From a virus, in the IMG/VR virus record IMGVR_UViG_3300035698_018618, positions 1 to 20,767 of that record: 20,767 nt of DNA. One strand, given 5' to 3'. The translations under genes were made by a program, and so were the position numbers. The notes beneath the pieces are model-generated. The model made no database searches. It saw only the letters and a program-made list of their open reading frames with translations, and was not told where the DNA came from. Position 1 is the first letter of the stretch, and the number at the start of each line of letters is the position of its first letter. Positions 2,559 to 20,652 of this stretch are shown piece after piece.

Positions 2559-4577
2559 ATGGATAAAAATTCAAAAGAAGAGAAAAGCGCCTTAGATATT
2601 GCAAAACAAGTTAAGACTGACTTAGCTAAGTACAGAAAGCAGTTTGAGGCCAATTGGAAAGAAGAAGAAAAAGCCTACCACGGCCAAATATGGTTAAATT
2701 CTGATGAGCACAAACCGTATGAAAATCATATATTCCAAACAATTGAAAGCGAAGTACCTATTTTAACAGATTCTTTGCCATCAACGACAGTAAAAGTATT
2801 AGATCCTGAGTTTGAAAAGCAAGCCGAGATTTTAAATAAATCCGTGTCTTACGTTCAAAAAAACCAAAAAATTGAATTGCAATTGCCTATGGTGATTAGA
2901 AATTCCCTTGTAAGTGCGCCAGGCTATTTGCACGTTTATTATGATGCAAATGCCAATGATGGTGATGGTGAAATAGTTCATGAAATCGTGGAGTGGAAAA
3001 ACGTCTATTTACACGGCGCTTCTTTGTTTGTTGAGAAATGTGACAAAGCTCGTATTGAGTTGAACAGATCAAGATCATGGTTAATTCAAAATTATCCTGA
3101 GTTTGAAAAAGAGTTAAAAGATGCTAAAGCGGAAGCACCTACTGATGACAATCAAAAAGAAGGAAGAGAAGATTTCGATTCTGGTAATAGTTATGCTCGA
3201 AGAGTCCCACCTAAGCCTTATAAAGATGATGATTCATTAGTATTAGTTAAAACATATATAAAAGATTATTCCATGGTTTCTATTCCAGAAGAAGAAACAA
3301 TGGAGGAATTACAACGTGAAGCTGAATCTTTGCCTAAAGGCGAGGGTATGGACGTAACCAAATATCAAGATCATGAAGCACATCTAGAATTTCATACGGA
3401 AGAAAGAGCCGCATTTTATAATGAATTGGGATTACCACCTGATGCAACATTAGAATTGGCAACACAAGCGGCTGAGCAATTAGCCCAAGAAACGCCTGAA
3501 TCTGGAGCAGAAGAACTTGTTTTACAAATTAAGATATTAGAAAACCATATGGAAGAACATGGCATTTTGCTTGAGGAAAATAAATCTAGTAAAAGACTTA
3601 AATACCCAGGCGCATTAAGGTGTATTGAAAATGTTGGCAAAATAAAGCTATACGATGGCCCTAGTCGCGATGATCATAATACAATCCCTCTTGTCCCGTT
3701 TTATTGTTATAGAAATGGCACGATTTATGGTTATGGAGAGATTAGAAATATTTTAGATTCTCAAAGAATGCAAGCTGTTATGGGTTATAAAGAGTATAAA
3801 GGCCTTCAAAAAGTAGCTAACCCCTCAGTCATTGTTGACAAAGAAACTGGCTTAACAACTGAAGATATAACTAACGAAGATGGTGCAACATATATCATCC
3901 CTCAAGGTTCAACTATTCGTCACTTACAGCCAGGCCAAATAAGCGAACAAGTATCAAGGTTCTCAAGCGATAAAACCCAAAAGATAAAAGATATTTCCGG
4001 CGTTAATGAAGCGACTCAAGGTGAGATGCCTAGTCCTAATGCAGCAGCGATCACAGTTAAGAGACTGAATCAGCAAGCTGTGGGCCGTATAAGGCTCAAG
4101 GATCGCCAAAACCAATACTACTCTATAAAGAGGCTGGGATATCTAGATGCTGCTCTTATAATCCAATACTGGACGGATGAGAAGGTTATTAGATTAGATA
4201 ATAGCGGCGAAGTACCTGAACAAGTTATTTTTAACCCGATCGAAATGGAAGATTTAAATTATGAAGTTGAAATAGATCAAGGATCAATGGCCGGTGTAGA
4301 CAAAGAATCATTTACTGCAATGATGTCAAATTTACTAATACAAGGACATATCCAATTTGATGAGTTTTTACAGGTTGCCGATATTCCAATGAAAGAGAAG
4401 CTAGCTAAGATGACTAGTAAGCGTTTTGATTTGGAAGGACAAATGCAAGAAATGCAACAAGAACTATTACTTAAAAAAGCACAGTTTGAGCCTGAACTAT
4501 TAACACCGGAAGAACAAGAGCAAGCACAAGAATTAATGATACAACAACAATCCGAACAACAAGCGGAAGTCAATTAA
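2559..4577 (+). CDS. Phage portal protein (podovirus type)
   Basis: This 672-residue protein would form the ring at the capsid vertex through which DNA enters and leaves and to which the tail attaches. Its length and position, after terminase and directly before scaffold and capsid genes, fit a podovirus portal. The N-terminus is charged and helical, followed by the portal-like segment YENHIFQTIESEVPILTDS (about 54-71). The central region carries YRNGTIYGYGEIRNILDSQ, and the SGVNEATQGE segment is typical of portals. The C-terminus is rich in Q and E (TPEEQEQAQELM), as in portals with a helical barrel. ATG is preceded only by a weak GTAGG. Family assigned by pattern, without alignment. Confidence 0.88.
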   Translation: MDKNSKEEKSALDIAKQVKTDLAKYRKQFEANWKEEEKAYHGQIWLNSDEHKPYENHIFQTIESEVPILTDSLPSTTVKVLDPEFEKQAEILNKSVSYVQKNQKIELQLPMVIRNSLVSAPGYLHVYYDANANDGDGEIVHEIVEWKNVYLHGASLFVEKCDKARIELNRSRSWLIQNYPEFEKELKDAKAEAPTDDNQKEGREDFDSGNSYARRVPPKPYKDDDSLVLVKTYIKDYSMVSIPEEETMEELQREAESLPKGEGMDVTKYQDHEAHLEFHTEERAAFYNELGLPPDATLELATQAAEQLAQETPESGAEELVLQIKILENHMEEHGILLEENKSSKRLKYPGALRCIENVGKIKLYDGPSRDDHNTIPLVPFYCYRNGTIYGYGEIRNILDSQRMQAVMGYKEYKGLQKVANPSVIVDKETGLTTEDITNEDGATYIIPQGSTIRHLQPGQISEQVSRFSSDKTQKIKDISGVNEATQGEMPSPNAAAITVKRLNQQAVGRIRLKDRQNQYYSIKRLGYLDAALIIQYWTDEKVIRLDNSGEVPEQVIFNPIEMEDLNYEVEIDQGSMAGVDKESFTAMMSNLLIQGHIQFDEFLQVADIPMKEKLAKMTSKRFDLEGQMQEMQQELLLKKAQFEPELLTPEEQEQAQELMIQQQSEQQAEVN

Positions 4578-4600: not shown

Positions 4601-5668
4601 ATGAAGATTAAAAGTAAAATGAACTTTGCCAAATTTTTCAACTCAGTGATTACTTCAGAAAGAGGTAATATGGATCTTTCTAGTGAGGATATACAAGAGG
4701 GTGGGGATTGGAGCGTTGGCGATCTTATGGATGATGACAATCTGGAAACAGAATCATTAAACGAAGATAGTTCGGAGAATGCAGAGCAAACTGAAGAGTC
4801 CTCTGAAGAAAATAGTTTAGAGCAACAATTAAATGAGTTTAATAAACCAGAGGAAGGCGAGGAAGCTCAAGTTGATCTATTAGGTCATTTAAATTCTTTA
4901 GGATTAACTAGGAATGGTTTACCAGTAGAATTTGATGACCTTGAAAAAGCGAAAGAAGTGATTTCGAAAGGATTTGATTACACTCAAAAAACGCAAGAAC
5001 TAGCAGATACTCGGCGAGAGCAAGATGAAATTTTCACTCAAAGAGAGCAGGAGATTGAAGCTAAGTTCAAAGAAGTTGATGAGTACAAAGAGCAAGTTAA
5101 CGACAAAATCTTAGAAAATGATGTAATGGGATTGGTATTAAATGAACTTAAAGCCAATGATCCGGACATTTTCAACGAACTTGTAAATGCCTATCAACAA
5201 AAAATGAGTGCATATTCCATGCAACAAAATAACCCCATGTTTAAGAACTTTGAGAGTAAAATTTCAAATCTTGAAAATCAGTTAAAAGAAACGTTCAGTC
5301 AAAAAGAAAAAGAAGTTTTAGATACAACTTTAAAAGATTGGGAAAATGGGATTAGTGAAGTTCAGCAAGAATTTGGAATGAAGCTCAAAAAACTCGGCAT
5401 AAGCCCGTCTTGGGATAAGGTTAAGGAAGCTTGGAGCGCAGATAGCACAGGTAGCTTAACAGTAAAACAAGCATTGTGGGCAGTCGAAGGTGACAAAATA
5501 CAGAAGTCTTTAGAGTCTCAAAATAGACTCGCAAAAACAAAAATGCAGAGCACTCGGAGAAGAGGCCCTGAAAATAATAATAATCAATCATTAGAAACTA
5601 TGGACGCTGGTGGGAGCAAAAGCGACTCTTACGTGGCTCATCTAATGGAAATAGCTAATACTTTATAA
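4601..5668 (+). CDS. Capsid scaffolding protein
   Basis: A 355-residue, highly charged, mostly helical protein lying between portal and major capsid genes, where the internal assembly scaffold is encoded in this phage type. The N-terminal third is strongly acidic (many D and E, residues about 25-95). Residues about 125-245 are long E/K/Q-rich helices suited to coiled coils. The C-terminus has a short basic patch (QSTRRRGPENNNN), the usual place for coat binding. No enzyme motif is visible. Start 4601 has a good AGGAG. A second in-frame ATG at 4670 also has an RBS-like AAAGAGG and would remove a 23-residue basic leader. Confidence 0.75.
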   Translation: MKIKSKMNFAKFFNSVITSERGNMDLSSEDIQEGGDWSVGDLMDDDNLETESLNEDSSENAEQTEESSEENSLEQQLNEFNKPEEGEEAQVDLLGHLNSLGLTRNGLPVEFDDLEKAKEVISKGFDYTQKTQELADTRREQDEIFTQREQEIEAKFKEVDEYKEQVNDKILENDVMGLVLNELKANDPDIFNELVNAYQQKMSAYSMQQNNPMFKNFESKISNLENQLKETFSQKEKEVLDTTLKDWENGISEVQQEFGMKLKKLGISPSWDKVKEAWSADSTGSLTVKQALWAVEGDKIQKSLESQNRLAKTKMQSTRRRGPENNNNQSLETMDAGGSKSDSYVAHLMEIANTL

Positions 5669-5684: not shown

Positions 5685-6644
5685 ATGGCTTTTACTTATG
5701 GACAGATTACGGCCCTAACTAATAAAGGTATCGACAAGATGCTTAGTGAAGGGGTTTTTAACGGGAATGCTTACTTAAAGCGTTTAAGAGAAAAACAAGA
5801 ATTAGAAGATGGTGGAACTAAAATTACTTGTCCACTAATGACTGTTGATGATACCGGTACTACTGGTGAATTTTACAGCCCTAGAGATCCTTTATCTCTT
5901 GATGAGTATGACGGAATCTCAGCAAGTGAGCACGATTGGAAATACATTGTTGAAAACGTGGTTATTTATAAAGCTGATATTGCTAAAAACTCTGGAAAAT
6001 TTGGAGTTATTAAGCTTATCGATTCAAAACTTAAGCAATCTGAAAGAGCGCTTAAGCAAAGAATGCTAAAAGGTGCTTTATCTGATGGGACAGCAGCGAC
6101 AGGTGCTTTATCAGCTAAACAATTTGTTGGATTGAATGCAATTATTGCTGCCAGTGGTTCTTACGGTGGGATTGCTCCTGCTGATCTAGCAACATGGGTT
6201 TCTTATGTTGATGATAACAGTGGTACTCCTAGAGCACTTACACAAGCAATTGTTGACAAGGCTTATGACCAAACTGTAGAAGGTGAATTTGGAGCAACTT
6301 TAGGGCTTATGGATAAAAACGTATTCACAAAGTTTAAAGGTCTATTAACTCCACAACAAAGAACAACTAGAGAAAGTTCAGTCGGTGGTCAAGGTCATAA
6401 AGGGCAAGAGATTGTTTATAATGGTATTGATCATATTATCGACAATGAAATGCCATCGGCTACAATGTTTTATGTTGACGAAAGACACTACAAGCTGCGT
6501 GTTCATAAAGATCACAATATGCGTAGACAGTCTATCCAAGACCTTGAGACAGCAGATGCAATGCTTGAGAGAATTTTCCTTTACGGAGCTACAGTGGCAA
6601 GCGAAAGAAAATTTCATTCAAGAGTAAATGACATTACAGTTTAA
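5685..6644 (+). CDS. Major capsid protein
   Basis: A 319-residue protein with a strong AGGAG RBS, directly after the scaffold gene. The N-terminus (helix, then MLSEGVFNGNAYLKRLREK) and an EF-loop-like acidic stretch (about 45-80) suit HK97-fold coat proteins of podoviruses with a separate scaffold. The central segment with SKLKQSERALKQRMLKGAL resembles the long spine helix. The C-terminal part (FYVDERHYKLRVHKD, then a helical ATASER-like end) is also usual for this class. Only one cysteine is present. Position and length make the call fairly firm; the exact coat family was not determined. Confidence 0.85.
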   Translation: MAFTYGQITALTNKGIDKMLSEGVFNGNAYLKRLREKQELEDGGTKITCPLMTVDDTGTTGEFYSPRDPLSLDEYDGISASEHDWKYIVENVVIYKADIAKNSGKFGVIKLIDSKLKQSERALKQRMLKGALSDGTAATGALSAKQFVGLNAIIAASGSYGGIAPADLATWVSYVDDNSGTPRALTQAIVDKAYDQTVEGEFGATLGLMDKNVFTKFKGLLTPQQRTTRESSVGGQGHKGQEIVYNGIDHIIDNEMPSATMFYVDERHYKLRVHKDHNMRRQSIQDLETADAMLERIFLYGATVASERKFHSRVNDITV

Positions 6645-6669: not shown

Positions 6670-7176
6670 ATGAAAAACATTTTAATTTTTACCCTATTTT
6701 GCCTATCTAGTTTTGCATCTTTTGCAGACAATGGGCCTGTAGGAAGATCCGTTTCACTGGATAATACTGGGGCTGTTCAATCAGGTTCAGAGGAAAAATG
6801 GTTTATAAACGTAGTTAATAGAGATGGTGCAAGTGCTGCTCTTGGAACTCTAATGTGCTTAGACCTAGTAGCAGATGACGGATATAGCGTTCTCACTTGC
6901 CCAGTTACAGCTGGTGGGTTACCTGTTTGTTTTCTAGCAGAGGCTTGTGCTGATGATGCTGTTTGTAAGTGCCAAACTTATGGCGCGTTTGCTAGCTCAA
7001 TCTTTTCTAATCAAGGTGGCCCAGCAGTTGCAGGACAACCAGTTTATCTATCTGAAGATATTGCGGGCAATGTAATTGCTAATTCAAGTGCGGGCGGGGG
7101 AGATAATCCAGTTGCAGTTGCATATGATGCTGCGTCAGCAAGTGGAACACTTCAAGTGTTTATCAAACTAAGATAA
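6670..7176 (+). CDS. Secreted Cys-rich, capsid-decoration-like protein
   Basis: This 168-residue protein begins with a textbook Sec signal peptide: MKN, hydrophobic core ILIFTLFCLSSF, then SFA/D with cleavage likely after A19. The mature part is small-residue rich, probably beta, and has six cysteines (63, 77, 87, 93, 99, 101), an even number that suits disulfides. The pattern of the last half (GQPVYLSEDIAGNV, then PVAVAYDAASASGTLQVFI) recalls small phage head-decoration proteins encoded just after the coat gene. RBS AAGGAT. Its stop overlaps the ATG of the membrane-enzyme gene downstream (TAATG), so the two are probably coupled. A signal peptide on a virion protein is odd. It may instead be a periplasmic or surface protein, or the substrate of its neighbour. 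Confidence 0.65.
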   Translation: MKNILIFTLFCLSSFASFADNGPVGRSVSLDNTGAVQSGSEEKWFINVVNRDGASAALGTLMCLDLVADDGYSVLTCPVTAGGLPVCFLAEACADDAVCKCQTYGAFASSIFSNQGGPAVAGQPVYLSEDIAGNVIANSSAGGGDNPVAVAYDAASASGTLQVFIKLR

Positions 7177-8318
7177 TGCAAAGCTTAATACTTTGGGGGG
7201 TGTTTTTAACACTCCCCTTTATAACTAAAGTAAGTGGTGTTTTTGGGGGTAGTTTCGCCGCCGAATATGTTACGTTCGCAAAACAAGTTAGCGGAATGGA
7301 TCTAACTAGAATAGGAAGAGATTTCTATTTTATAATGCTATTTGTTTTAATGTTTATAAATTTTGAAAAAATAAATCAACTACCTAAAAAAATAAAATAT
7401 ATATTTAGCTACCTTTGTATTTCATCTTTCTTAGTTCAATTTGATTTCATGCTACCTAAAGTTTTTTATCAGTTTATTATGTTTTCAATTGGTGTTGGGT
7501 TTTTTGTATCCCTATACTCAACCCTAAATGAAAAAGTAATAAACAGAATATCCCTCATAATTTATTTATCTGGTGCTGTCGCTTCAATCGCTGTTATTTT
7601 AGAGAAATATGGGTTTGAGTATAAACAACTTCAGATGATGTTTTTTGGAGCCAAGAGCATGGCCTTAGAGCATCATAGCGAGATAGTTGGTGTGTTAGGG
7701 CAAGCGAGTCTAAGCGCGACTTACATAGCTCTCTGTGCGCCTTGTGCTTTGAAAAATAAAAGATGGTTGTTGTTACCTCTATTTATGGTGGCGATAGTTA
7801 TACTCAAAAGCTATATGGGTGCTATCTGTTTAGTTGCTGCAATTTGTTATTATATTTCAACTAGAAAAATTAAACCTGTTTTTATTTACATGGCTTCTGT
7901 AATTGGGATGGTTAGTATTTATTTTACAGGGCTTAATGGTTTAGACACGAGAAGATTCTCAATTTGGGAAAAATCTTTTGATACATTTCTAAGTTTTGAT
8001 CTTTTTGGCAATGGCCTTGGTTGGGCCGGTGTAATGTTACCTTTTTATTATGGCAAAGAACGCGCAGGAATATATGTAACAAACTTTCATAATGATTTTT
8101 TAAGTATATATGCAACATTTGGAGCTATTGGGTTGGTTTTGTTAATTGTCCTATTGAAAAATTCTATTTGTTTAAACAAAGAAATATCAGCAGGGGTATT
8201 TTGCTCATTTGTGGCCATGTATGGGAATTTTCCACTTTATATTGTGAGTACTTTTGTATTAGTGGCGTTCTATTTTGCCGCAGGAATTTATTTGAAAAAT
8301 CGGGAGATATATGGCTAG
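7176..8318 (+). CDS. O-antigen ligase/polymerase-like membrane enzyme
   Basis: A 380-residue protein with about ten hydrophobic segments, to be placed in the inner membrane. The C-terminal half has the order of PF04932 (Wzy_C) proteins: GVLGQASLSATYIAL (about 172-186), SYMGAICLVAA, then a hydrophilic loop with RR..IW (259-264), FGNGLGW (277-283), NFHNDFLSIYATFGAIGL (303-320) and final membrane helices. This family joins lipid-linked glycans: O-antigen polymerase, O-antigen ligase, or protein O-oligosaccharyltransferase (PglL/PilO type), with catalysis on the periplasmic side. Sequence alone does not separate these three. It sits between capsid and tail genes, coupled upstream by TAATG and overlapping the adaptor gene by 8 bases, so it is probably expressed late with the virion genes. 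Upstream RBS is weak. Confidence 0.8.
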   Translation: MQSLILWGVFLTLPFITKVSGVFGGSFAAEYVTFAKQVSGMDLTRIGRDFYFIMLFVLMFINFEKINQLPKKIKYIFSYLCISSFLVQFDFMLPKVFYQFIMFSIGVGFFVSLYSTLNEKVINRISLIIYLSGAVASIAVILEKYGFEYKQLQMMFFGAKSMALEHHSEIVGVLGQASLSATYIALCAPCALKNKRWLLLPLFMVAIVILKSYMGAICLVAAICYYISTRKIKPVFIYMASVIGMVSIYFTGLNGLDTRRFSIWEKSFDTFLSFDLFGNGLGWAGVMLPFYYGKERAGIYVTNFHNDFLSIYATFGAIGLVLLIVLLKNSICLNKEISAGVFCSFVAMYGNFPLYIVSTFVLVAFYFAAGIYLKNREIYG

Positions 8319-10419
8319 GTCATGGAATGGGAAAGCTTTAGTTGATTATTTAGGCGAAAGAATATGGAGTCCACAAGCTGGATTTAGGTCTAAAATTATA
8401 GGCTGGATAAATGAAATTCAGGACGATATTACTAGTGAAATACCGATTGAATATTTTAATTTCAAGCTTAAAAAGTTATTACCAACTCTCCAAGAAAAGA
8501 TTAATCTAGAGATTGAAAAACCAGCAGCACCGAGCATTGAAATAACTATTACAGAATCTACTATAAATTATAATACAACTACAGCGAGTAACTATACTTA
8601 TACGGCCGCAAGTTTTAATTTCTCATCAACTGATGTCGGATTAGGTGCTGGGCTTAATGCTAATGAAACTTTTAGAAATACTTTTTCTGTGGATGCTTCT
8701 TCTTTGCCAGAATTAGGAATAGGAACTTTAACATCAGCCGAAACGGGAACGCCTGTTATTGTTGACGGGGTTGCAAAACTTAATGCAGAATCTGAATATA
8801 TTGAATTTGACTCAGACAACATTGATTATGTAGATACTGGTTGTATCAGAATAGTCGGATCGCCTCAATATACTGGATCTCCTACCACTGATAGTTGGCT
8901 ATATAGTACGTCATCTGCTTTTGGTAGTGTAAATAACTCAGTGAATATTTCTCATTCACTGACTGGTAACTTAAGTCTACTTTTTTATGATAATTCGGGG
9001 AATGTAGCGATCAATCAGGGTGCTGCATGGTCACCAACATCAGGGCAAGAATACGAGATTGAAGTCAATTTCGATGTGGCAAATAATCTTTATTATGTAT
9101 TTATAGATGGTGTGGCTTTTGGTTCTTTTGCAGGGGCAGCCAGAAATAGAACATCAGCAAATAGTTTTTTTAGAATCGGAGCTGGTTTTTCTGGCGGGAA
9201 AGTATCACCTCTTGATTGGTGGGTAAGTAGTGTCCAAGTCTACAATGCTATTCAACACACTACTGCTTATACAGCGGTTGGAGTTTCACCATATGTAACA
9301 GATACGCCAAGAATAGCACTCACAACAGGTTTTACAGTTGGGGAATTACAGTCATTTGTAGAATCAGCAGTTAAACCAACAGGTACAGAAGTAAAATATG
9401 TTATAGATGTGGGCGGTGTTGAGAAATATTATGATGGTGCAGATTGGGTTGTCTCAAATGGCCTTTATGCTCAAGCAAATACAGCAACAGAGATAAATAC
9501 TAATGCAAGTGCTCTCTTGGCAGCGTCATCAACTGTTAAAATAATCGCACTTTTAAGCACGACAGATCCGGCTGTAACGCCGCAACTAACAAGCGTGACA
9601 ACTGGCGATTCTGGAGCATTAACAACCGGCACAACCTATAAAGCGACTGTGACATTTGAAATATTTGATGATGATAATGTTAAATCAATTGAGAGCGAGG
9701 CTGGTGATTACAGTAGTGAGGTTATTTCTGATTTAACTAATCAAACAATTAATTTATCAGGGATAAGTATTTTTACAGGATTAAACACCGTTGGCCCATT
9801 AACAATATATAGAAATATTTACCTGGCGGCAAAAACTTCAGGGGAAACGGAATTTGCTGAGCCATTTTTCAAATGTACATTAATGGACAACACGACAACC
9901 ACCGTTGTTATATCTGAAGATACGACAAGCACCATTACGCCGCCAAGTGATAGCGAATGTGATCAACTAACAAGCGATCATATGTATTTTGAGTCGGGAG
10001 AACGTAGGTTATATCAAGTTAATAAAAACAAGCTTAGAAGGTCAAATATAAATGCTGATGATTCTAGTACTCCAAGTACCTTTGATTTTTTAGGGCCTAT
10101 GAGTATCATTTTAAACCCAACTTTAAGTTCAGCAGCGACAGAGGGGCAAAAAACACTTTCATATAATGTGTATAGACGCCCTAAAGAGGTTTTTTATGAC
10201 ATCGATCGAAAAGTAGACCTTCCAATAGTTTTTAAAAAAGCTCTTTATGAGGGCGTAATATGGAAATCTTATGATTTTAAAGATAGAGATGGTTCGCAAA
10301 GTAAATTAGCTAATTACGAGAAATTTAAAAAAGATGCCATAAATAAATTAACAAGACAAAGAGGCGCTCCGTCCTCAGTTAGAGATGTCAATGGCGACGC
10401 TCTTGGGTGGGAGATGTAA
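8311..10419 (+). CDS. Head-tail adaptor with large lectin-like insertion
   Basis: A 702-residue protein. The N-terminus (about 1-75, with WNGKALVDYLGERIW and WINEIQDDI) and C-terminus (about 610-702, with YRRPKEVFYDIDRK and a helical end) look like the two halves of a podovirus head-tail adaptor, normally a small protein of under 200-odd residues. Between them lie about 530 residues of beta-rich sequence: a LamG/concanavalin-like jelly roll (about 120-325; YYVFIDGVAFGSF, FFRIGAG, WVSSVQVYN), a small domain (332-430), a fibronectin-like domain (about 435-545) and a propeller-blade-like stretch (553-595). Lectin-type domains bind glycans, so this ring may carry an extra surface-binding module. 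RBS GGGAG. Only three cysteines. An alternative is a tail component with no adaptor role. Confidence 0.65.
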   Translation: MARSWNGKALVDYLGERIWSPQAGFRSKIIGWINEIQDDITSEIPIEYFNFKLKKLLPTLQEKINLEIEKPAAPSIEITITESTINYNTTTASNYTYTAASFNFSSTDVGLGAGLNANETFRNTFSVDASSLPELGIGTLTSAETGTPVIVDGVAKLNAESEYIEFDSDNIDYVDTGCIRIVGSPQYTGSPTTDSWLYSTSSAFGSVNNSVNISHSLTGNLSLLFYDNSGNVAINQGAAWSPTSGQEYEIEVNFDVANNLYYVFIDGVAFGSFAGAARNRTSANSFFRIGAGFSGGKVSPLDWWVSSVQVYNAIQHTTAYTAVGVSPYVTDTPRIALTTGFTVGELQSFVESAVKPTGTEVKYVIDVGGVEKYYDGADWVVSNGLYAQANTATEINTNASALLAASSTVKIIALLSTTDPAVTPQLTSVTTGDSGALTTGTTYKATVTFEIFDDDNVKSIESEAGDYSSEVISDLTNQTINLSGISIFTGLNTVGPLTIYRNIYLAAKTSGETEFAEPFFKCTLMDNTTTTVVISEDTTSTITPPSDSECDQLTSDHMYFESGERRLYQVNKNKLRRSNINADDSSTPSTFDFLGPMSIILNPTLSSAATEGQKTLSYNVYRRPKEVFYDIDRKVDLPIVFKKALYEGVIWKSYDFKDRDGSQSKLANYEKFKKDAINKLTRQRGAPSSVRDVNGDALGWEM

Positions 10420-12321
10420 ATGCCTCAAGCACTCAGAGCAATGAAAAAATTTAAAAACTTTAACCAGCCCGTAAGTTATAGGCTAGATGTTGAAGATAAA
10501 ATGCGAGATGCTAGAAATATCATAAGCAATCAAGATAGGTTAGATACTAGAAATGGTGTGCAAAGATTTAATAATGTTGCAATTAATTCTGGTGCAGATA
10601 TACAGTCATTAACATTCTTTAAGAAAACAGATGGAACTTCATATTATATTGCAAAGGCCGGCACTTCATTATTTTCAGTTAGTGAAAGTGGTTCACATAC
10701 AGAAATAAAAACAGGCTTAACAGCCTCATATAAGCACAGATCAGTTAATTTTAATGATAGAGCAATTATTTCAATAGAAGGTGATGGCCTTTTTTCATGG
10801 GATGGCACAATTTTTAGTCAATTAGGACAAGTCCCGCCATCAGCACCTTCAGTTGCAGCAAGCGGTTCGGGAAATACATTGCCAGCAAGTAATTATCAAG
10901 TTGCAATAACTTATTACTCTAGCACTCTCGGGTTTGAAACAAATATAGGTGCAGCGAGTTCGACAGTAACAGTGGCCAGTGCTGAGCAAATAGATGTTAC
11001 AAATATACCAAACGCAGCAGCAAACGGTTTTATCGATAAGAAAAGAGTTTATTTAAAAGATATAACAGCTAACACCGAATGGATTTTCTGGGATGAAATA
11101 ACATTAGGAACAACCGTCGAAACAATTGATGAGCCGGTAAGTAGTACGTCAAATCCACCGACAACAAATGCTGCACCATTAGCGGGTGGTGGTAAATACT
11201 TAACTGTATTTGGAAAAAAGATTATCTATGCTGGAAGCTCTAGTTTTCCGAGTGATATATTTTTTAGTGAATCATATCTAGCCGATGCATTTGATGACTC
11301 CACAAGCGCAAGAATAGTTTTAAAAGCATCAGGGCAAGGGCCTGTTACTGGTTTAGCAGTTGGCTTTTACAGTGATTCAAACTTAGCGCCATATTTATGT
11401 ATTTTTAAGAAAAGCAATATTGAATTATATTCAGAAGTGGGTGGCTCGCCCTCAGTATCTATTGTCTCAAGTAGTGTCGGCGCAATAAGCCATGAAACTA
11501 TAAAAGAAGTCAATGGTGATATTTATTTCATGAGCGAGAATGGCTGGCATGTTATCTCGGATGGTAGAATAGTTAGAAAAGATAAAAAAGCTCTTAGATT
11601 AGGAAATGGGGATATTGACAATATTTTTACTGAAGAAGGCTATGTTTATGAGTTAAATAAGCAAAATTTTGATAACTTTTTTAGTGTTTATTACCCTACA
11701 TTAAACCAATATATAAGCTTCATCAGTGAAGGTTCGAATAATAGTATCAGCAAAGCATATAATTATGAGTTTAATATCGCAGGGTTTAGGCCTTTCGAGT
11801 TTCCGATTAGTTACACAAGCGGGTGTTTAGCGGAAGATGGCGATGGTGAAGATGTTGTTTTATTGGCTGGATCAGGCGGTTGGATATACCAACATGGAAT
11901 AAATGTAACTCGCCACGATGTTGATATAGATAATACGAGTGTGGCGATTGATGCCTTTGCACAATTATATTGGATAAATCATGATGATCTAGATGCTAAC
12001 CTCAACTTTGGAACTTTCATACTCAAAGCGTTGAAAAGCTCTGACAATATAACAGTGAAGTGCTTTTTTGACTACAATCTAACGGTTTCGGACGATAAGA
12101 CCTTTTTGTTTGATGCTGATGATTCTGGGGCAATTTGGGACGTTTCCGAATGGGATAATGCTATTTGGACAGATGGCCGAACAATAGTTAGAAAAGCGAA
12201 TATAGGAATATACAGATCAGCACAAAATGTACTTATAGGATTTTATCAGTCAATTATAGATTCAAATATAGGTTTACTCGGGGGACAAATAGATGTCAGT
12301 AAAAACGGTAATACTAACTAG
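10420..12321 (+). CDS. Tail nozzle/hub protein (podovirus tail tube type)
   Basis: A 633-residue beta-rich protein starting immediately after the adaptor stop, with GGGAG just upstream. The N-terminus has an ARN..SNQDRLDTRNGVQRF segment typical of podovirus tail-nozzle proteins, followed by repeated propeller-like strands (TFFKKTDGTSYYIAKAG, NDRAIISIEGDGLFSWDGT). A fibronectin-like domain follows at about 142-245. The second half contains further blades (VNGDIYFMSENGWHVISDG, VVLLAGSGGWIYQHG). Such proteins form the tube below the adaptor and hold the fibres. It overlaps the fibre gene by 29 bases. Assigned by pattern and gene order. Confidence 0.7.
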   Translation: MPQALRAMKKFKNFNQPVSYRLDVEDKMRDARNIISNQDRLDTRNGVQRFNNVAINSGADIQSLTFFKKTDGTSYYIAKAGTSLFSVSESGSHTEIKTGLTASYKHRSVNFNDRAIISIEGDGLFSWDGTIFSQLGQVPPSAPSVAASGSGNTLPASNYQVAITYYSSTLGFETNIGAASSTVTVASAEQIDVTNIPNAAANGFIDKKRVYLKDITANTEWIFWDEITLGTTVETIDEPVSSTSNPPTTNAAPLAGGGKYLTVFGKKIIYAGSSSFPSDIFFSESYLADAFDDSTSARIVLKASGQGPVTGLAVGFYSDSNLAPYLCIFKKSNIELYSEVGGSPSVSIVSSSVGAISHETIKEVNGDIYFMSENGWHVISDGRIVRKDKKALRLGNGDIDNIFTEEGYVYELNKQNFDNFFSVYYPTLNQYISFISEGSNNSISKAYNYEFNIAGFRPFEFPISYTSGCLAEDGDGEDVVLLAGSGGWIYQHGINVTRHDVDIDNTSVAIDAFAQLYWINHDDLDANLNFGTFILKALKSSDNITVKCFFDYNLTVSDDKTFLFDADDSGAIWDVSEWDNAIWTDGRTIVRKANIGIYRSAQNVLIGFYQSIIDSNIGLLGGQIDVSKNGNTN

Positions 12322-13297
12322 TTTATTATTTTTAATAACTAACTCAGCCATGGCAGTATGCTCTAGCGTAATTTCAAGGACTAACTTTAGCCCAAATACA
12401 GTTATTAGCTCAACAACTATGAATTCTCAGTTAAATACTGTTTTTAATAGAGCTAATGAGCTGCCAGGCGATTGTATAACTAGTGGCTCAATTACTCCGA
12501 CACAACTTGATCTAACAACTTTACAGCCTGTTTTAAAAGCTCCTAAAAATGGTTGTGTGGTTACAAGAACAGATGCAGCGACTCTTTCAATAGATGAATG
12601 TATTATTGCAGTTGGCGGTAATATGATCGAAACAACTGCGGCCACAAGTGTTACGTGGGGCTGTACTGGCTGTTCAAGCGAAGCAAGTGCCACAGTATTT
12701 TATTTATATGTAGGCTCAACTAGTGATGGCGCAACTATTGCTCCTATTATCAAAACAACTGCGCCTGATGGGAATGGTTATGAGTCTAATGATAGAATTA
12801 TAGCTAGTTTTTATAATAATGATGGTTCGGACATATCAGATTGCTCAATAGCTAATCATTCACAGTTTGGCCTTATTGAATCATGCAAAAGCTTTAGAAC
12901 ATATACACCAACATTTACAGGGTTTGGCACTGTCTCTGCAAGCGAGTTTGATTATAAAAGAGTGGGTGACTCGATAATTATAAGAGGCAGTCTTACTTGT
13001 GGAACTCCTACAGGGGTGGAAGCTCAGATTACTTTACCAGAGGGGCTTTTTGTCGCTACAGGGGTATCTTTGTCACCAGTAGGTGCTTATTTTAGAGATA
13101 CTAGTGCAACAGCAAGTGGCGGGCCTATATTAATAACGGCTGGGGATGCTTTTATAAATCTCGCCCATAGAGAAGTTTTTAGCGGAAGTGCCCAGTCTGC
13201 AACAACTCCCGCCGATGGTGACGAAACATGTGCATCATCAGGGCAAAAAATACAATTTACGACAGGACTAATACAGATTGAAGGGTTTTCAATTTAG
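12293..13297 (+). CDS. Tail-fibre-like protein with signal peptide
   Basis: A 334-residue protein. The N-terminus is a clear Sec signal peptide (MSVKTVILTSLLFLITNSAMA, cleavage after A21 by an AxA site). The mature start (FSPNTVISSTTMNSQLNTVF...N) follows the N-terminal pattern of phage fibre proteins (T.I....MN..F..V...N). The end contains FDYKRVGDSIIIRGSLTCG, a C-terminal pattern seen in phage receptor-binding proteins (RVGD..E.RG......A.I.LP). The mature protein has ten cysteines, an even number. The gene lies in the usual fibre position after the nozzle. A signal peptide is unexpected for a virion protein and implies passage to the periplasm, or an N-terminus used as a hydrophobic anchor. 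Confidence 0.65.
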   Translation: MSVKTVILTSLLFLITNSAMAVCSSVISRTNFSPNTVISSTTMNSQLNTVFNRANELPGDCITSGSITPTQLDLTTLQPVLKAPKNGCVVTRTDAATLSIDECIIAVGGNMIETTAATSVTWGCTGCSSEASATVFYLYVGSTSDGATIAPIIKTTAPDGNGYESNDRIIASFYNNDGSDISDCSIANHSQFGLIESCKSFRTYTPTFTGFGTVSASEFDYKRVGDSIIIRGSLTCGTPTGVEAQITLPEGLFVATGVSLSPVGAYFRDTSATASGGPILITAGDAFINLAHREVFSGSAQSATTPADGDETCASSGQKIQFTTGLIQIEGFSI

Positions 13298-13304
13298 GGG
13301 ATAT

Positions 13305-13625
13305 ATGTACGATTTATACTTAAAAGAGCGAGAAGGAAAAAGCTACACTGAGACAGGATACGGTTTCGCAGTTTATAAAATAACTGGCGACGAATGTTAT
13401 ATTAGTGAAATCTTTGTACAAAAAGAATATCGCAAAACAGGTGAAGCAAAAAAAATAATGGATTTAGTAAAAGAAATAGCGATTGCAAATAATTGCAAAG
13501 TACTAACAGGCTCATGTGTCCCGAGTTTAGCAGGGGCAACCACTTCAATAAAGGCAGCACTCGCCTATGGGATGGAAATAATGGGCGCTCACGATGATTT
13601 TATTACTTTAAAAATGGAGGTTTGA
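13305..13625 (+). CDS. GNAT-family acetyltransferase-like protein
   Basis: A 106-residue protein. The ATG at 13305 is preferred over an in-frame TTG at 13278, because AGGGG lies a few bases before it and it follows the fibre stop. The segment CYISEIFVQKEYRKTGEAKK carries the GNAT acetyl-CoA loop R43-x-x-G46-x-A48, preceded by the usual beta strand. The rest (KVLTGSCVPSLAGATTSIKA, AYGMEIMG) matches the end of GNAT folds. Small GNAT proteins encoded within podovirus structural clusters are known; their substrate is mostly undetermined. The gene ends two bases before the next ATG, whose RBS (GGAGG) lies inside it. Confidence 0.75.
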   Translation: MYDLYLKEREGKSYTETGYGFAVYKITGDECYISEIFVQKEYRKTGEAKKIMDLVKEIAIANNCKVLTGSCVPSLAGATTSIKAALAYGMEIMGAHDDFITLKMEV

Positions 13626-15312: not shown

Positions 15313-17360
15313 TGTTAAGCCCCGAGGAAACACAAGAATTACAAATGCTCGAACAAGAGGAAGCTCAAGCTCAACAACTTATAGGCCAAGCTCAGGGTAT
15401 GCAACAACCAATGCAATCAGGCCTAACTCAACAAGAACAAGAAGAGTTAATGATGCTTGAACAAGAAGAGTCTGACGCTCAAAATATGCTAGCACAGCAA
15501 CCGCAACAACTTCCAATAAACAGAGAAGATGAGGTTGATCTTGGGTTTATAGACAGGACAAGATATTCAATAGAGCCACTTGAATCAAACAGAAGGGCTC
15601 TCCTTATTCAAAAATTTGGTGAAGAAAATATTGTCGAGGATAAAAACGGAGATGTATTTATTAACCAAGGCGGCACACTACGCCCCATAAATGAAGAAGG
15701 TTTTTCTTTTACTGATGCTACTAATTTTATGGGTTCTATCCCAGAAATGGCAGGGGCCGTTGTTGGTGGCATTGGTGCTGGAAGTGCCACAGGTGGACTA
15801 GGTGCTATTCCTGGTGCAATCGCTGGCGGTGCTGCTGGCTCAGCAATAAGGCAAGGCTTAAGCGCATCACTGGGAACTCCACAAGTTGCAGAGCTAAGCG
15901 AAAGAGCTGGCGAAGTTGCATTATCTGGCGCATTGTCAGGAGCAGGGGCAGGGCTTGGAAAAGTTGTAAAGGTAGGGTTTAAAAAAGCATTCCCGAGATT
16001 TAAAGTAGACAAGGCTTTAAAAGAAGTTGCAAAAAAGTTAAATATATCAGAGCCAACAAGCGGGCAATTGGCGGGGGGTAGAGATTTAGAAGTTGAGAAA
16101 GCCCTTGCAGAAACGCCTATATTTGGTAGAAAAATCCGAAAAAAAGTTGAACAACAAGTTAAGGATATAAAAAGAAATTTATCTGAACAGTTTGGAGATT
16201 TTACAGAAGTTGATTTTGATCGTGCTGGTTTCGGAAGTGCCTTAAAAGAAAAGGCCGTAAAATCAAACAAGGCTGTAAAAACAGCAGCTTCAGAATTATT
16301 TGATAAAGTTAGTGAACAAGGTAAATCTATAAATGTTCCTTCAGGCGAGTTTGAAAAAAGTTTAAGCAAACAATTTAAAGGGCTTGGGCTTATCGGGAAT
16401 AATGGCGAACTATTAGAACATTCTGCAAAAACAGGATTAACGGAAACGCAATTCATAAGATTACAAGGGATAGCGAAAAAAACACTTAACCAGGTAAGAA
16501 GATCGGGAGAAGTTCTTGATGACACTGTGGCGGGCGTTTCAAAATCTACAGATTTATCAATTGGTGGTCAGAATTTTGGCAAAGCTAAAGAATCTTTTAT
16601 AAATGCAACAGATGTAAATACTATTAGAAAATTCATAGATGCCAATATTAAAGAAGGTGCTCAAGCTGGTGTTGATGACATAGCTCTGATTAAACTTAGG
16701 GAAGGTTTAATGAATGTTACTGAAGAAATGCTAGGGGCACAAGATAAAAACCTTAAAAGAGAATTTAGGGCCGCAAGAGGGTTATGGAGCAAATACGTTA
16801 AGAATAGATCAATATTAGAAAAAGAATTAAAGCTTTCAGGTAAAAGCCCATTAAGCGACGAAAAAGTATTAGATCGTATTTTCAGAGATAAGAAAGGTGT
16901 TGATAAATTGCGCGAAATCATGGATGAGGAAACTATAAAAGATGCTGGCGATAATTATATTAAAAACTTGTTATCTAAAAAATTAGGTGGTGAAGATAAA
17001 ATTGGGGCAAGCGGCGCCTTAAGTGCTATTCGAGCAAAACGCGAAGCAATAAAAAGAGCAATAGGAAAAGATGGCTATCAAACAATGGTTGATAATTTGG
17101 ATTTTTTAGACCGCATAGGAAAACCCATTAATCCAAGTAAAACAGGTATATTAGGATTAAGAACAGAGCTTTTGAAAGGGGCTGGTCTTAGTATTAATAA
17201 AAAAGGAAGGGAAGTAACTCGAAATTTTGTAGAAGATCTTCCAAAAAGCATGGCAAAAAAAGCTAATCTACTAACAGACACGCAACAAAGAGCGATAAGT
17301 TTTGATAGTTTTGCAAGTCCGAAAGTGCCCTATAGAACTCCACAAGGAAGTGAGGAATGA
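15312..17360 (+). CDS. Large internal virion / DNA-ejection protein
   Basis: A 682-residue protein without cysteine. Residues about 4-28 and 40-64 are imperfect copies of a Q/E-rich unit (EELMMLEQEE, ELQMLEQEE). A glycine-zipper segment follows at about 141-188 (GAVVGGIGAGSATGGLG, AIAGGAAGSAIRQG), able to cross a membrane. The remainder is long basic helices with a K-rich C-terminus. This layout, hydrophobic zipper plus extended helices, is that of large ejection proteins which help build a channel for DNA entry. No transglycosylase or peptidase motif is apparent. It begins in the TAATG of the previous gene and ends in an ATGA overlap with the next. Confidence 0.65.
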   Translation: MLSPEETQELQMLEQEEAQAQQLIGQAQGMQQPMQSGLTQQEQEELMMLEQEESDAQNMLAQQPQQLPINREDEVDLGFIDRTRYSIEPLESNRRALLIQKFGEENIVEDKNGDVFINQGGTLRPINEEGFSFTDATNFMGSIPEMAGAVVGGIGAGSATGGLGAIPGAIAGGAAGSAIRQGLSASLGTPQVAELSERAGEVALSGALSGAGAGLGKVVKVGFKKAFPRFKVDKALKEVAKKLNISEPTSGQLAGGRDLEVEKALAETPIFGRKIRKKVEQQVKDIKRNLSEQFGDFTEVDFDRAGFGSALKEKAVKSNKAVKTAASELFDKVSEQGKSINVPSGEFEKSLSKQFKGLGLIGNNGELLEHSAKTGLTETQFIRLQGIAKKTLNQVRRSGEVLDDTVAGVSKSTDLSIGGQNFGKAKESFINATDVNTIRKFIDANIKEGAQAGVDDIALIKLREGLMNVTEEMLGAQDKNLKREFRAARGLWSKYVKNRSILEKELKLSGKSPLSDEKVLDRIFRDKKGVDKLREIMDEETIKDAGDNYIKNLLSKKLGGEDKIGASGALSAIRAKREAIKRAIGKDGYQTMVDNLDFLDRIGKPINPSKTGILGLRTELLKGAGLSINKKGREVTRNFVEDLPKSMAKKANLLTDTQQRAISFDSFASPKVPYRTPQGSEE

Positions 17361-20508: not shown

Positions 20509-20652
20509 AGACCAAGACCAAGACCTAGACCCAGACCAAGACCTAGACCCAGACCCAGACCCAGACCTAGACCTAGACCTAGACCTAGACCCAGACCAAG
20601 ACCCAGACCCAGACCCAGACCTAGACCCAGACCAAGACCCAGACCCAGACCT
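20509..20652. repeat. Tandem hexamer array (AGACCN) x24
   Basis: Twenty-four perfect six-base units, AGACC plus one variable base, without any other change. The variable base is A five times, T eight times, C eleven times and never G. In the + strand frame AGA-CCN it encodes Arg-Pro throughout; on the minus strand GGT-CTN it encodes Gly-Leu throughout, so all variation is silent in both frames. The order T-C-A recurs at units 3-5, 13-15 and 19-21, which suggests growth by segment duplication. Possible roles: a length-variable coding tail, a slippage switch, or a structural site. Confidence 0.95.

Follow-up and report, generated by a model that had tools for sequence, protein, structure and literature searches.

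The locus described here raises the question of why a gene for a polytopic, O-antigen-ligase-like membrane enzyme should lie among the virion genes of a phage, and which molecule would receive the glycan that it transfers. The window, the whole stretch of DNA analyzed, is a 20.8-kb virus contig (20,767 nucleotides, IMGVR_UViG_3300035698_018618) from a podovirus-like phage. Its genes follow the order P22-type portal (2559–4577), scaffold, SU10-type capsid protein (MCP), a small cysteine-rich protein (SEC), the enzyme (ENZ), tail genes including a large tail protein (TUB), and a fiber (Table 1). No terminator-like site was found between positions 5500 and 8600, so the block from capsid through SEC and ENZ to tail fits a single operon. 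The 3' end of ENZ shares 8 bases (8311–8318) with the next ORF, a tail gene, and the junction between SEC and ENZ is a tight overlap or a very short gap in most relatives.

Table 1. Coordinates of the SEC and ENZ genes, their neighbors and their main sequence features in the window.
Feature	Coordinates	Strand	Basis or remark
Major capsid protein (MCP; SU10/HK97-type), directly upstream of SEC	5685..6644	+	PF17236, E 1.3e-5; phrog_9953 major head protein, E 7.7e-37
SEC, exported capsid-decoration-type protein (predicted), 168-aa precursor	6670..7176	+	Structure model, PDB matches, phrog_122 match of a relative
Probable Sec signal peptide of SEC, residues 1–19	6670..6726	+	Basic n-region, hydrophobic core, small-residue cleavage site; exact cleavage uncertain, placed after residue 16 by script
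Six mature SEC cysteines C63, C77, C87, C93, C99, C101; predicted pairs 63–77, 87–101, 93–99	6856..6972	+	Paired presence/absence in 27 homologues
SEC–ENZ stop/start overlap TAATG (translational coupling)	7174..7178	+	Sequence
ENZ, 380-aa polytopic glycan ligase of the Wzy_C type (WaaL/PglL superfamily)	7176..8318	+	PF04932; Foldseek match to WaaL
R260 of ENZ, corresponding to R288 of E. coli WaaL by motif/spacing	7953..7955	+	Invariant in 12/12
H305 in the HN motif of ENZ, corresponding to H338 of E. coli WaaL and H349 of PglL by motif/spacing	8088..8090	+	Invariant in 12/12
Tail/connector-type protein, next after ENZ	8311..10419	+	Neighbor kept in relatives
TUB, large tail-tube/stabilization-type protein, clade marker	10420..12321	+	Relatives 44–58% identical to the window protein
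Fiber-like protein with 10 mature Cys and a signal peptide; may be another exported virion component	12293..13297	+	Comparison of signal peptide and Cys number among relatives

SEC begins with a probable signal peptide, MKNILIFTLFCLSSFASFA, after which the sequence continues with DNG. The same layout of basic n-region, hydrophobic core and small-residue cleavage site was found by a simple script and inspection in 27 of 27 SEC homologues, whose mature sequences share 21–77% identity. The precursor contains seven cysteines, six of them in the mature part, and the cysteine content of SEC (2.8%) is about five times that of MCP and TUB (0.5–0.6%). The number of mature cysteines is even in all 27 homologues, compared to 12/30 for MCP, 14/28 for TUB and 9/25 for ENZ from the same genomes; given these controls, chance is an unlikely source of the parity. 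Furthermore, four cysteine pairs (alignment columns 62/84, 138/156, 148/154 and 103/128–129) are present or absent together, with zero discordant cases among the 27. The parity and pair counts are inflated by relatedness, yet the pairs come and go in lineages that are only distantly related. Such paired, even cysteines are the signature of disulfides that would form in an oxidizing compartment, and the sequence features together indicate that SEC is very probably exported. The first-pass annotation of the window had described a Sec-exported, six-cysteine protein joined to the enzyme by TAATG, and this is confirmed by the probable signal peptide, the six mature cysteines and the overlap of the two genes.

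The structure model of SEC (pLDDT 86) is informative about its likely role. The first ~23 matches in the PDB are phage capsid proteins, nearly all of them decoration proteins or head-fiber bases, and nearly all matches at a probability of ~1 are phage capsid decoration proteins. The matches include proteins from cyanophage Pam3 (the best, E 5.3e-5), HFTV1, Sf11, XM1, TW1, T1 and FCWL1, as well as the phi29 head-fiber base gp8.5, with lambda D as a weaker match. Many phage fiber proteins are among the matches to a library of viral models. Sequence libraries yielded no match for the SEC protein of the window; the SEC of one relative (L019), and of that relative only, matches phrog_122 'head decoration' (E 5.6e-5). 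SEC resembles known decoration proteins and head-fiber bases (Pam3, HFTV1, phi29 gp8.5, Sf11, T1, lambda D, phrog_122) in fold, size and position after the capsid gene. Unlike these, it has a signal peptide and one to three predicted disulfides; to our knowledge, known decoration proteins are cytoplasmic and are not paired with a ligase. Given this decoration-type fold in the model, SEC is probably itself part of the virion. The initial description of an exported, cysteine-rich neighbor of the enzyme thus stands, but it had missed the decoration fold.

A signal peptide and disulfides are unusual in a capsid protein, and could instead mean that SEC derives from a decoration protein but functions outside the virion, at the host surface, for example as a decoy or exclusion factor, with ENZ helping to anchor it to a surface glycan. 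We regard this as very unlikely in view of the decoration fold, the location directly after the capsid gene and the co-divergence of SEC with the capsid protein. With the tail protein controlled for, the divergence of SEC follows that of MCP (partial r 0.59, permutation p 0.0002); the corresponding value for SEC and the tail protein, with the capsid protein allowed for, is r −0.23. Such tracking would be expected of a protein that binds the capsid, although linkage between adjacent genes could contribute.

ENZ was assigned from its Pfam match and its predicted fold. It scores 34.5 bits against PF04932 (Wzy_C; cut-off 31.7, E 2.1e-8), and the same domain is matched by 7 of 8 aligned family members; in related records, 12/27 are above the cut-off and 22/27 reach E≤0.1. 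One relative also matches TIGR03097, 'putative O-glycosylation ligase' (E 2.8e-4). The ENZ model is of moderate quality (pLDDT 77). Its sole PDB match with E<0.4 in a Foldseek search is the O-antigen ligase WaaL (7tpg; E 8.8e-4, TM 0.47), aligned at ~13% identity. These results bear out the original assignment of a PF04932-type enzyme. A search with the single ENZ sequence gave no matches, and relatives emerged only through alignments. WaaL was found as a PDB sequence match with an 8-member profile (E 0.0034) but was lost with a 12-member profile, and we relied on the fold and Pfam instead. The invariant arginine and histidine of ENZ correspond by motif and spacing to R288 and H338, which are functional residues of E. 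coli WaaL (PMC3643930). Since the PglL_A motif (PF15864) reaches 12.0 of 25 bits (E 0.19), which is under the cut-off, ENZ cannot be classed as PglL from its sequence; PilO, an O-OTase, also does not have this motif (PMC3643930).

PF04932 is common to WaaL, Wzy and PglL. ENZ may be an O-antigen ligase or polymerase that is made late and acts on host LPS or another surface glycan, either preventing the trapping of progeny on debris or excluding other phages; its place next to SEC would then reflect no more than a shared site of action, the envelope. The identity of the best structural match and the low score of the PglL-specific motif are in keeping with such a function, and phage-encoded Wzy_C proteins involved in serotype conversion are known from D3 and VarioGold (p25). 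The latter genes, however, are thought to be active in lysogeny and are located outside the structural block (PMC9658991), whereas ENZ always lies within that block, linked to a single exported protein and never found without SEC. A late-operon gene would also make a poor exclusion tool in a lytic phage. Compared to WaaL, with which ENZ shares the PF04932 domain and the conserved R/H pair, ENZ is encoded outside any LPS locus, between capsid and tail genes, and its acceptor is presumably not the lipid A core. We consider modification of host LPS or another surface glycan, which includes the superinfection reading of the first-pass annotation, to be the main alternative, though rather unlikely.

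To place the SEC–ENZ pair in its wider context, 30 informative loci on distinct contigs, including the window, were gathered using capsid, SEC and tail queries. In 25 of them, the interval from the capsid gene to the tail genes contains SEC followed by ENZ, in agreement with the location noted at first for the enzyme; the same pair in the same place in so many related loci indicates a pairing beyond chance. Two loci (L002 and L003) have SEC alone, three (L010, L078 and L079) have neither, and none has ENZ alone; L059 and L062, which are cut off upstream, were left out of the test for ENZ without SEC. The suggestion that conservation of the pair should be checked in related phages is thus answered in its favor, and the two outcomes named as contrary to it, an enzyme without its partner and an enzyme outside PF04932, were not encountered. 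Fifteen loci were first met through the tail query, which is independent of SEC and ENZ; 13 of these contain both genes and two contain neither. Wzy_C genes occur at most once per record searched, always at this position.

In a tree of the tail protein, L003 and L010 form a sister pair within a set of loci that carry both genes (100/100), and L078 and L079 fall inside a supported group that otherwise carries both (95/96). This placement indicates that the pair is old, rather than in transit, and it is probably ancestral in the clade. No relatives of TUB, SEC or ENZ were detected in 50,697 annotated phage records, and alignments of MCP and TUB found no relative among GTDB genome contigs; hence, the clade seems to be uncultured. 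The capsid relatives in annotated phages are only distant, as for example in Mx9 and BUCT555. By inspection, the proteins encoded after the capsid gene in distant relatives of this type have no evident signal peptide at the start, and that of Mx9 matches a different family. Taken together, these results make it highly probable that the virion operon of this uncultured clade pairs an exported, disulfide-bonded protein of decoration fold with a ligase of the WaaL superfamily.

Several loci vary at the SEC–ENZ position. In L043, one small gene (4981–5238) separates SEC and ENZ and encodes a small protein without a signal peptide; a protein resembling it (L078, 5721–5993) is located alone in the position of the pair in L078. 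Three loci that do not encode ENZ (L002, 8320–8560; L003, 10543–10710; L010, 5610–5910) contain a terminator-like hairpin and, after it, a short conserved element, GGCCCTTG ... TTTCTTGCCATGT ... CAGGGGCC, with a potential stem. The copy in L010 reads as a 75-aa membrane ORF.

The simplest reading of the pair is that ENZ glycosylates SEC, since ENZ is always made with SEC. The same argument has been applied to bacterial PglL homologues: most genes for PglL-type ligases adjoin a gene for a likely exported, pilin-like acceptor and are located outside LPS loci (PMC3643930). The systems formed by PglL with ComP or a pilin, and by PilO/TfpO with PilA, are comparable to ENZ–SEC in that a Wzy_C ligase with a conserved Arg/His adjoins the gene of an exported acceptor, a role that is putative for SEC. 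The phage pair differs from them in its location between capsid and tail genes, in a putative acceptor with a decoration fold rather than that of a pilin, in the PglL_A score and in an activity that is predicted.

The evidence on glycosylation of SEC by ENZ is balanced, and we would put it at even odds; the interpretation in the first-pass annotation is supported in part. L002 and L003 retain SEC without ENZ, and in these phages SEC would have to work unmodified or be modified by a host enzyme. No co-divergence of SEC and ENZ beyond background was detected, with ENZ near saturation (median identity 24%), and a search of Ser/Thr conservation for acceptor sites found no column that separates ENZ-paired from ENZ-less SEC. 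These two results, like the PglL_A score below the cut-off and the moderate ENZ model, count against the assignment. As for the donor, no GT2 or GT4 glycosyltransferases were found in 13 phage records searched (most of 27–40 kb), so ENZ most likely uses a lipid-linked glycan of the host, as far as can be judged from gene content.

We propose the following mechanism. SEC would be a capsid decoration protein, of the cement or head-fiber-base type, that is made late alongside the capsid, leaves through the Sec system and gains its disulfides in the periplasm. ENZ would be a phage-encoded ligase of the WaaL/PglL superfamily in the inner membrane, dedicated to SEC, whose periplasmic Arg/His center accepts a host-made, undecaprenyl-linked oligosaccharide and moves it en bloc onto SEC, possibly also onto the exported fiber. 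When the membrane is breached at lysis, glycosylated SEC would dock on finished capsids, and the released particle would wear a sugar coat of the host type. We assign a probability of about 0.5 to this reading as a whole, in which SEC is a Sec-exported, oxidized decoration protein that is glycosylated by ENZ with a host glycan and docks at lysis. From the topology we infer the docking step; we know of no precedent for post-assembly docking of an exported decoration protein. The acceptor role of SEC, the en bloc transfer and any benefit in masking, stability or adhesion are likewise suppositions of the model. The arrangement of the locus suggests that these phages coat their own particles with host sugars.

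The fiber encoded further downstream may be a second exported component. It has a signal peptide and even cysteine counts in most relatives, so the early description of it as a signal-peptide protein holds. The fiber signal peptide is kept in L003, L010 and L079, with a weaker one in L078, all without ENZ, which indicates that export of the fiber is independent of ENZ. The fiber, or one of the small proteins with signal peptides, might nevertheless be the true acceptor, with SEC a mere neighbor of the enzyme. The signal peptide and mostly even cysteine counts would suit such a role, but the persistence of this signal peptide in phages that do not encode ENZ, the location of ENZ next to SEC rather than the fiber, and L076, where ENZ is present while the fiber has no signal peptide, make it improbable. 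The L076 fiber, the one clear case with no signal peptide, has a single cysteine. Additional small signal-peptide-like ORFs directly follow the fiber gene in L007 (about 15496–15807), L042, L063, L071 and L074.

Virion assembly in tailed phages is generally thought to be cytoplasmic. Returning to SEC as the acceptor, and with the fiber included, the outer surface of the virion would be built partly outside the cytoplasm: the decoration protein and, independently, the fiber would be exported by Sec and oxidized, the decoration protein would be O-glycosylated by a phage oligosaccharyltransferase using a host lipid-linked glycan, and both would be added at lysis. This broader proposal is tentative, and we hold it to be slightly short of an even chance. 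If true, passage of a decoration protein and a fiber through the periplasm would change the picture of cytoplasmic assembly, and a virus whose own oligosaccharyltransferase serves one of its virion proteins would have a new way of wearing host sugars for masking, stability or adhesion. The compact two-gene pair would make en bloc glycosylation of phage particles directly testable. Virion proteins that cross the inner membrane with a signal peptide are familiar from the coat proteins of filamentous phages, which belong to a different virus realm and assemble by extrusion; the phage here is tailed and has an NlpC/P60-type lysis candidate. A literature search, restricted to open-access papers and hence weak evidence, returned no paper describing a tailed-phage decoration protein with a signal peptide or a virion operon that contains a Wzy_C gene.

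Other features of the window are of separate interest. Two minus-strand ORFs (1828–2492) are located between terminase and portal within the plus-strand virion block; one has zinc-ribbon-like Cys-x2-Cys motifs, and a Pfam search of both gave no match. An AGACCC tandem array of 23.8 copies (20509–20651), read as an (Arg-Pro)n ORF, lies near the contig end and could be an assembly or a biological repeat. The fiber gene is followed by a GNAT acetyltransferase (13278–13625), and acetyltransferases are also annotated just after a tail gene in Mx9, Bradyrhizobium phage ppBjS10J-1 and one uncultured phage.
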